Virus record (IMG/VR): IMGVR_UViG_3300009160_000050
Span: 1 to 58,369 of that record
DNA: 58,369 nt
From: a virus
Direction: 5' to 3' (one strand)
The stretch's first letter is position 1. Every line of letters begins with the position of its first letter. This document shows, one piece after another, positions 30,522 to 32,965 of this stretch. Below the pieces are notes generated by a model. It saw only the letters and a program-made list of their open reading frames with translations, ran no database searches and was not told the DNA's origin. The translations under genes and the position numbers were made by a program.

Positions 30522-30713
30522 TTACTTTACTTCTTTTACTGAATCTACAGCAAGTGAATCAACTGTAGCACATTCGCTAGAGTCAACTTTTACCGCTGTT
30601 GAGTCTACTGCTGGTGCAGTTGCTTCTCCTGTTCCGCTTTGACATGATGTTAAAGCAAGAGCAGAAATTACTACGAATAGTGCAATAATCTTTCTCATGG
30701 TACGTTCTTTCAT
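30522..30713 (-). CDS. Small lipoprotein, 63 aa
   Basis: From the ATG at 30713 the product is MKERTMRKIIALFVVISALA, then LTSC, a lipobox, with the acylated Cys followed by an acidic, Ala/Thr/Val/Ser-rich tail carrying repeated VDS motifs. The longer open frame from 30848 runs through the tmRNA 3' end and is not credible. The 30713 start is preceded by an A-rich stretch typical of Bacteroidota starts; 30698 (MRKIIALF) is an alternative. It is probably anchored in a host membrane during infection. A superinfection-exclusion or lysis-related role is possible, but not shown by the sequence. Confidence 0.7.
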   Translation of the reverse strand: MKERTMRKIIALFVVISALALTSCQSGTGEATAPAVDSTAVKVDSSECATVDSLAVDSVKEVK

Positions 30714-30806
30714 TTTTTTTATTAATTTATTATACAGTATTATGTATACCTTGGTTTTGGAAGTTTTTGCACTCTGACCCAACAAAGTGCAAAAACTTTC
30801 CTCGTG

Positions 30807-31212
30807 TGGACACGGTGGGATTCGAACCCACGTCCAAACAGTTGTCAAATTGACTCTTTCACAGGCTTAGTCCATTTTTCTAAAGGGACAAAATATTCAA
30901 CTGGTTCTTCACCATCGTCAGCTGACCACCAATGGGTGTGCGTTTCTTTTAATGACTTAACTGCTCAGTCAGGTTTACTCTCCAGTTATTAGACCGAATT
31001 TCACCAGTTTGCAACTTTCTTTTAAATGGGCAGTTGCCGCACCATTGGTTAGGCAGCTACTGCTACTTCACCGCTTACGAAAGACATTGCGTCTTCGAAA
31101 GTAAAAGTTGACTTTTCGTCAGTTGTTGTTTGATAGGTAGTTAAGGATTTCCATCTAACCCTGCCTGCATCATCTCAAAGAACTTACCTGCCTGTCAAAA
31201 CCGGTCGTGCCC
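30807..31212 (-). ncRNA. ssrA: Transfer-messenger RNA (tmRNA)
   Basis: On the minus strand the 5' end GGGCACG pairs with CGTGTCC at the 3' end to form a 7-bp acceptor stem (one G-U), followed by discriminator A at 30807. The D-loop analogue (CCGGTTTTGACAGG) and the T-arm (GTGGG TTCGAAT CCCAC) match tmRNA. CCA is not encoded; the next bases are CAC. About 90 nt from the 5' end a reading frame opens near GAC (31120) and ends at TAA (31049), ending in SFVSGEVAVAA, a typical hydrophobic ClpXP-type degron end. The exact resume codon is inferred. tmRNA rescues stalled ribosomes with SmpB; no smpB is seen here, so host SmpB would be used. Confidence 0.92.
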
Positions 31213-31278
31213 ATATTAATAGATCTAAATTATCTATCCGTAGTATTATATAGAAACGGGTAAAAAAAGTTTTCCGAA

Positions 31279-31306: not shown

Positions 31307-32965
31307 ATGGCTAGTGCAACTGAAAATTTTAAGGTATTTAAACGACTTAGTGTTTATATCGAGGACATTTTAAGTCAGTCGATCAATTACTTAACGAGTA
31401 AGTTCGACCAAAACAGAGTAGTATTTACTGCAGCCTCACCATTTGGGCAGTTATTATTAGTTGTTGAAAATTTAACTCAATTAGTTTTTTACTATATCGA
31501 GGACTCAATTACCGAACTTAATATTAATGAAGCAACTCGATTGACTTCAATTTATTCCCTATCAAGTTTATCTGGACATAATCCTAGTCGAGCAGTATCT
31601 GCAGTTGGCGAAGTAAAACTTTCAACTAATGCTGGTGCAATCGATGCTGAATACGATTTTGTAATTATCCCAAACTTAACCCGATTACGTTGTTTAAATA
31701 ATGGATTAACATATATTTTAGACCTTCCACAAGACGAAGTTAGATTTTCCTTTAGCGGAAAGGATAATGGTCTAAAATTACAGATTCGTCAAGGAATCGT
31801 TGAGACTCAGACTGTTTCTGCAAAGGGCGTCCCGACTGACAGTTTTTCAATCGGCAGTCCACAAAACTTCTATGTAGATAACTTTTATGTAAACGTTTAT
31901 GTGAATGGAGAAAAATGGACCAAATATGATTCAATCTTAGATATGCCTCGTGGAGAACGTGCATACATGATAAAAACAGGAGTTACTACTGGAATAGATT
32001 TATACTTTGGTAATAATAACTATGGTAAAATACCTGGATATGGAGCTGATGTTACTGTTGAATACTTAGTAACTGAAGGAGCCAACGGAAATATTAGAAC
32101 GAATGATCCGTCTAAAGTTCAATTTGAATTTATTGATACTGGGTTTAGTATCCTAGGTGATGAAATTGATCTTAACGAATTTATTGATGCAATTACAACG
32201 CATCCTCCATTCTTCGGTTCAAATCCAGAAGACTCTAACTTAACGCGGCTTATTGCGCCTCGTATGTCAAAGAGCTTTGCTCTAGTTAATGCAGATCATT
32301 ACGAGATCTTATTGAGAAAACTTAAATTATTTTCAGTAATTACCGTTTACTTAGACGAACTAGACAATCGTATCCTAAATTTATTCCTGATTCCAGATAT
32401 CAGAAAAACTTTTAATACTGGCCAAGATTATTTTAATGCGAATATTGATCGCTTTATCTTAAGTGATTACCAAAAACAGGAACTACTAAGATTTATTGAA
32501 AAATCAGGATCTAAATTAATTTCAACAGATATTGTAATTATTGATCCTGCTCCATCTAACTATGTAATTAATACGTCAGTTATCGTTTTTGATGATGTAG
32601 ACACTGAAATTATTAAGCGCGATATTCTCAATGCCTTAGGAACTTTCTTTATTGAAAACACAAGAAGAAGTAGAATTCCAAAGAGTGACTTAATTAAAAT
32701 TATTGAGGGCGTAAATGGAGTAGACTCAGTGTCAGTTAATATTATTTCACAAAAGAATGAACTTGCAAAAATTGCAAACCCAAATGCTGTCGACGTTGGA
32801 CTTGATGAATTTAACGATATTGTGACTCTAGCAAACGAGCTTCCTCTAATTCGAGGAGGATTTAGCGATCGTTACGGAAACGTGTATGCTACTGGAATTT
32901 CAGAAGAGTCCTTAGGTGCAGTAAATATCCAGATCAAGGCAATTATGCCAAGACCAAAAATGTAA
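31307..32965 (+). CDS. Baseplate wedge protein, gp6/baseplate-J-like, 552 aa
   Basis: The segment FGNNNYGKIPGYGADVTVEYLVTEGANGNI (residues about 234-262, broken here by family wildcards) is the hallmark of baseplate J-like/gp6 proteins, which form the dimeric ring of the contractile-tail baseplate. N-terminal helices (residues 1-100) and the C-terminal region of repeated small alpha/beta domains (about 350-530, including SVITVYLDELDNRILN) agree with that family. Length is somewhat under T4 gp6 (660 aa). It is the first gene of the packaging operon, preceded by a T4-late-type box and followed 7 bases later by a small gene. Confidence 0.75.
   Translation: MASATENFKVFKRLSVYIEDILSQSINYLTSKFDQNRVVFTAASPFGQLLLVVENLTQLVFYYIEDSITELNINEATRLTSIYSLSSLSGHNPSRAVSAVGEVKLSTNAGAIDAEYDFVIIPNLTRLRCLNNGLTYILDLPQDEVRFSFSGKDNGLKLQIRQGIVETQTVSAKGVPTDSFSIGSPQNFYVDNFYVNVYVNGEKWTKYDSILDMPRGERAYMIKTGVTTGIDLYFGNNNYGKIPGYGADVTVEYLVTEGANGNIRTNDPSKVQFEFIDTGFSILGDEIDLNEFIDAITTHPPFFGSNPEDSNLTRLIAPRMSKSFALVNADHYEILLRKLKLFSVITVYLDELDNRILNLFLIPDIRKTFNTGQDYFNANIDRFILSDYQKQELLRFIEKSGSKLISTDIVIIDPAPSNYVINTSVIVFDDVDTEIIKRDILNALGTFFIENTRRSRIPKSDLIKIIEGVNGVDSVSVNIISQKNELAKIANPNAVDVGLDEFNDIVTLANELPLIRGGFSDRYGNVYATGISEESLGAVNIQIKAIMPRPKM

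Follow-up and report, generated by a model that had tools for sequence, protein, structure and literature searches.

The window analysed here, a 58-kb IMG/VR virus record (58,369 nucleotides) that may be a fragment, carries a tmRNA gene whose 23-residue tag, DEKSTFTFEDAMSFVSGEVAVAA, is more than twice the length of a bacterial tag. We consider it probable that the gene specifies a working phage tmRNA, which carries out trans-translation in infected cells with factors of the host, and that an insert within the tag is a second, phage-specific recognition element, likely read by the host. The idea of a working tmRNA is supported by an intact tRNA-like domain, including the alanine identity pair, and by PK1, a resume codon and a tag frame; selection has kept all of these in related phages, and the tag peptide itself is constrained. 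That the tmRNA element is real was confirmed by evidence far beyond chance.

The tmRNA gene and its surroundings

ARAGORN predicted a single tmRNA, at 30806-31212 on the minus strand and with the 23-residue tag given above, and the Rfam model RF00023 matched 31212-30804 over its whole length (1-374), scoring 88.5 bits where the gathering score is 47 (E = 4.8e-33). An earlier note on this DNA had described a complete phage tmRNA between 30807 and 31212 and had proposed the covariance-model check; the prediction and the end-to-end match bear out its completeness, the ends are exact and the strand, which had been left unstated, is minus (Table 1). The match is collinear with the one-piece model, which rules out a two-piece (circularly permuted) tmRNA.

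Read from the sequence, the acceptor stem GGGCACG/CGTGTCC consists of seven pairs that include the alanine identity pair G3.U70. The genomic sequence continues with CAC right after the discriminator A, so that CCA is not encoded and would be added post-transcriptionally. The resume codon GAC (31118-31120) lies 11 nt 3' of PK1, a spacing that is also found in E. coli tmRNA. The tag frame is open, is terminated by a stop codon and specifies a small hydrophobic C-terminus. The mid-part of the Rfam alignment (helix 5 and the PK2-PK4 region) has low posterior values, and the MFE fold of the RNA gives z = -1.65.

Table 1. Coordinates of the tmRNA gene, its parts and two phage genes in the window
Feature	Coordinates	Strand	Basis and remarks
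tmRNA (ssrA) gene	30807..31212	minus	5' end 31212, discriminator A 30807; ARAGORN, Rfam RF00023, sequence reading
Acceptor stem, 5' strand GGGCACG, with G3	31206..31212	minus	RF00023; 61/61 relatives, compensatory changes
Acceptor stem, 3' strand CGTGTCC, with U70	30808..30814	minus	RF00023; relatives
T arm GTGGG-TTCGAAT-CCCAC	30815..30831	minus	RF00023; relatives
PK1 stem 1, 5' strand AGGGUU	31157..31162	minus	Pairs with AAUCCU at 31144-31149; covariation
PK1 stem 1, 3' strand AAUCCU	31144..31149	minus	Covariation
Tag frame DEKSTFTFEDAMSFVSGEVAVAA, resume GAC to stop TAA	31049..31120	minus	ARAGORN; relatives
Putative phage-specific tag insert STFTFEDAMSFVSG	31070..31111	minus	dN/dS; missing from host tags
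Near-host C-terminal degron EVAVAA (putative) and stop	31049..31069	minus	ARAGORN; host-tag comparison
AT-rich box TATATAATACT, candidate promoter element	31242..31252	minus	Upstream of tmRNA; conservation in close relatives only
Baseplate wedge protein, divergent neighbour, synteny anchor	31307..32965	plus	PHROG 219; same place in relatives
Terminase large subunit, basis of phage tree	33965..35944	plus	PHROG 5989

The structure is conserved. Each of 61 relatives retains the seven acceptor pairs, the five T-stem pairs and G3.U70, and a single position may be occupied by as many as five pair types; extraction of these sequences demanded at least six acceptor and at least four T-stem pairs, so that the percentages are partly built in, but the diversity of compensating pairs is not. 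This extraction replaced a strict 5' pattern for the gene ends, which had recovered only nine sequences; nine sequences dropped out of it, some through an unusual T loop (L006 and L007). For PK1 stem 1, in an alignment of 33 sequences picked by eye as alignable, 97.5% of cells are paired and 43 double changes are seen, compared with 11.1 in shuffles, while slid versions of the stem pair in 40-56%.

Two peculiarities of the automatic calls were observed among the relatives. The T loop of L006, L007 and L022 is without TTCGA (GGGGCTATCGTATGCCCC), which is why ARAGORN misses these tmRNAs; they were found by Rfam. For L090, L099, L119 and their relatives the tags given by ARAGORN are wrong (for example, APVPLMGL), and the conserved frame reads DNKSTWTFEDAMSFVGADLAVAA.

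Matches in the window include terminase, baseplate wedge and further genes for head and tail. Its tmRNA is flanked by the divergent baseplate wedge gene, which syntenic tmRNAs in related contigs also adjoin, and by a small lipoprotein-like ORF just downstream (30522-30698, minus). Low-complexity ORFs resembling the latter were seen close to the tmRNA at 19 of 70 loci; a search for recurrent neighbours across related loci found no constant one. Upstream (31213-31260, minus), the TATATAATACT box and GATAGATAATATAGATCTA-like boxes are kept in close relatives, and a consensus scan gave a result no better than chance. By the baseplate protein, the nearest named phages are mainly those on Bacteroidota (Prevotella (Lak), Tenacibaculum, Chryseobacterium and Flavobacterium). 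The closest terminase matches are to the same set of named phages and to huge metagenomic phages, with weak matches to many others. From these nearest named phages we infer that the host belongs to the Bacteroidota.

The phage tag family and selection on the peptide

A tmRNA is present in 147 of 148 Bacteroidota genomes and, like that of the window, the Bacteroidota RNA described by RF00023 is one-piece with a G3.U70 acceptor and PK1. The 66 tags predicted by ARAGORN in this phylum comprise 33 of ten residues and 32 of nine, typically ADDYSYAMAA or GENNYALAA, and follow the consensus [GAD]..[NS]YA[LM]AA; two odd ones (one of 33 residues and DQVDKLNSVP) are probable mispredictions. One Bacteroidota genome holds a second tmRNA-like copy (L375, G203:C1:772761-773172) with the tag GENNYALAA and an Rfam score of 49.3 bits. 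The earlier note had held the phage tag to be longer than, and different from, host tags, and so it is, with 23 residues compared with 9-10 in 65 of the 66 predictions; assignment to the host type was rejected on these grounds. The starts are similar and the ends nearly identical (host YA[LM]AA, phage xA[VIL]AA), but the host tags have no FEDAMSF insert. The phage tag thus reads as a host-like tag into which a phage-specific insert of some 12-14 residues appears to have been placed, ahead of a C-terminal degron close to that of the host. Two close relatives of the window, L026 and L008, illustrate this in that their tags are without the insert or most of it.

The tag is a member of a family known from viral contigs, with 70 distinct coding sequences and the consensus [ST]x[TS]FEDAM[SA]FVGAD[YL]AVAA. 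A search of viral sequences with a degenerate DNA pattern encoding FEDAMSFV gave 73 stretches, nearly all of them tmRNA tags. The same pattern, applied to 84,980 species of bacteria and archaea with one genome per species, gave three matches only, and a motif check found no T arm or tmRNA 3' motif near any of these three, which have no tmRNA features. A second survey was based on a pattern for the 3' region of the RNA, so that sequences were not picked by their tag, and yielded 76 unique tmRNA regions. A FEDAM-type tag is encoded in 44 of these: 41 were recognized by a regular expression, which missed the other three (L115, L151 and L281) because they have S-D or S-N instead of S-T. Other long tags in the survey include YN[ST]ED[MI]MSIPTS[IL]T and NVW[ED].IN.FG.PV; seven regions have short tags (13-14 residues) and seven have no resolved tag.

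A tblastn search with the tag found nothing in annotated phages and plasmids, and the family is therefore known here from metagenomic contigs only. No similar peptide was found among solved structures. FEDAMSF is absent from the open-access main texts searched, and these gave no account of the tag family.

We compared 39 coding sequences that had been collected independently of the tag. For these dN/dS is 0.21 over the whole tag (bootstrap 0.19-0.24), with values of 0.066 for FEDAMSFV, 0.30 for ST.T and 0.40 for the C-terminus, and codon-position entropy is 0.97 at third positions compared with 0.34 at first and 0.26 at second (permutation p = 1e-4). A larger set of 67 coding sequences, in which FEDAMSFV is partly fixed by the search pattern, gives a dN/dS of 0.19. 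Pairs of sequences share 76.5% of their nucleotides in the tag and 57.5% in the rest of the tmRNA, the latter a rough figure as the divergent middle aligns poorly. Judged by these substitution patterns, the tag is constrained as a peptide by purifying selection.

Such constraint bears on two alternatives. Firstly, the insert might be kept for reasons of RNA, such as spacing, a hairpin in the mRNA-like part or pseudoknot folding, with the peptide incidental. A hairpin can be folded from the insert sequence, and codons are used unevenly, so that some constraint on the RNA is possible; nevertheless, changes concentrate at synonymous third positions, and close relatives of the window without the insert, L026 (tag GNTKLAMAA) and L008 (GNSFVGAEMAIAA, without STFTFEDAM), still match the tmRNA model. 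We regard this explanation as highly improbable. That L026 and L008 dropped the insert also indicates that it is not indispensable. Secondly, the tag might be an ordinary degradation signal, alike among phages through recent gene exchange and drift, in which the insert does nothing special. The terminase tree places FEDAM tags in clades with only some 30% identity between them and requires the tag type to have changed at least five times, so exchange or repeated loss has occurred; the distribution is compatible with ancestry with losses or with horizontal exchange. Yet in all parts of the tag dN/dS lies well under 1 and the tmRNA body is far more diverged than the tag, and we consider this second alternative quite unlikely. 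An amphipathic helix was also considered for the insert and is unsupported: except in one sequence (VWEAINSFGAPV), the hydrophobic moment does not exceed that of shuffles.

Candidate readers of the tag

SmpB was found in none of 27 long-tag or related contigs, although it is encoded in six huge-phage records, and this phage family therefore likely uses host SmpB. No ClpX above the cutoff was found in long-tag contigs (only Lak-B5 and LR756504 gave such matches), no Lon or FtsH in the phage records searched and no SspB in 26 contigs. ClpP-like matches occur in four of the 27 contigs. ClpS homologues occur in three of 26 (L391, G051:87849-88034; L392, G089:148603-148785; and G054:82523-82669) and are too rare for ClpS to be a general partner of the tag. 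When five long-tag contigs were set against three short-tag ones in an incomplete, blastp-based comparison, no small protein proved to be confined to the long-tag set; the only proteins in all five of the former and none of the latter are terminase and a replicative-helicase-like protein. As contigs may be fragments, the absence of SmpB and proteases is not proven and these are weak negatives, but the missing phage-encoded partners tilt the balance towards a host receptor. Phage GroEL and GroES genes were also noted (L446:10709-12343 and L405:529-828), with homologues in G048, G050, G059 and G084 and GroES only in G083.

The lack of SmpB in the related long-tag contigs would also suit a decoy, in which the phage RNA sequesters host SmpB or blocks trans-translation by the host, and mycobacteriophage DS6A offers a precedent in a short tmRNA-like molecule reported as a tmRNA inhibitor (PMC4131195, PMC11915505). 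A decoy, however, would have no need for a tag frame that is complete, under selection and provided with a resume codon and a stop, and we find the idea extremely improbable.

The earlier note had suggested that proteases might handle tagged products differently. Taken further, the long tag could divert stalled proteins from ClpXP to another protease, or delay their destruction so that the phage keeps partial proteins. The insert is conserved as a peptide, several different long inserts are found more than once among related phages, and in Mesoplasma florum a long ssrA tag goes with a changed protease partner, mf-Lon (PMC9382460, PMC3439342). Against this, the C-terminus, x-A-[VIL]-A-A, is near host YA[LM]AA and not the NYAFA of Mollicutes, so that host ClpXP could probably still act, and the phage records searched hold no Lon or FtsH. 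A switch of protease is thus unlikely in our view; the suggestion of the earlier note is supported in part only, the difference from host tags being the conserved internal insert and not the ending.

We therefore return to the working tmRNA with a second recognition element. Host alanyl-tRNA synthetase, EF-Tu and SmpB would load the phage tmRNA, which would enter ribosomes stalled on truncated mRNA during infection; alanine and the 23-residue tag would be added and the ribosome freed. Rescue of stalled ribosomes, which the earlier note had envisaged, is supported as the natural function of such an RNA; host shut-off or the decay of host mRNAs, which that note had named, may be the trigger. The last five or six residues of the tag would be a host-like Clp degron, and the insert, ST[FMW]TFEDAM[SA]FVG, would be bound most likely by a host factor (an adaptor or protease) rather than by a phage protein, so as to direct or accelerate the removal of tagged chains in infected cells.

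tmRNA tags are commonly seen as short signals for degradation, different in different bacteria. This is not the situation here, where a long, near-invariant, peptide-constrained tag is spread across deeply diverged phages and missing from the bacterial genomes searched, which points to a specific partner in the infected cell. It is possible, and we propose it only tentatively, that several Bacteroidota phage lineages share a second tag code: an address of some 12-14 residues that precedes the normal degron and is read by a putative host receptor, so that proteins from stalled ribosomes would meet a different fate in infected and in healthy cells. YN[ST]ED[MI]MSIPTS[IL]T and NVW[ED].IN.FG.PV might then serve as other addresses, recognized by this receptor or a different one. 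With a binder of FEDAMSF (peptide STFTFEDAMSFV) one could test directly why phages carry tmRNA, and the tags would supply natural, possibly orthogonal degradation signals for Bacteroidota.

Comparison with other tmRNAs

Phage-encoded tmRNAs are already known (PMC4131195, PMC9004378, PMC7162821). Those of mycobacteriophages and Bacillus phage G (PMC4131195) share with the window the carriage of the gene by a phage. The tmRNAs of marine Melnitz-like phages and pelagimyophages are thought to act in infection (PMC9004378); the Melnitz tmRNA is two-piece, of alphaproteobacterial type, whereas the window gene is one-piece.

Mesoplasma florum has in common with the window a long tag and is a precedent for reading by a different partner. 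Its tag ends in NYAFA and is read by Lon, whereas the phage tag ends in AVAA; this ending and the lack of Lon in the phage records searched rule out a Lon-type long tag of the Mollicutes kind.

The huge phages (PMC7162821) and Lak phages also encode tmRNA, some with long tags, although the parts of that paper's text consulted do not describe tag sequences. They differ from the window family in that their records encode SmpB as well: SmpB and tmRNA occur together in the huge phages LR756501, LR756502, LR756504, Lak-A1 and Lak-B5, several of which also have ClpP or ClpX. The tags of Lak and LR756500 are short (10 aa) compared with the 23 residues of the window, while those of LR756501, LR756502 and LR756504 have 24-33 residues. 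The tag of LR756501, NAEDMMSIPTS..., has ED.MS in common with that of the window.
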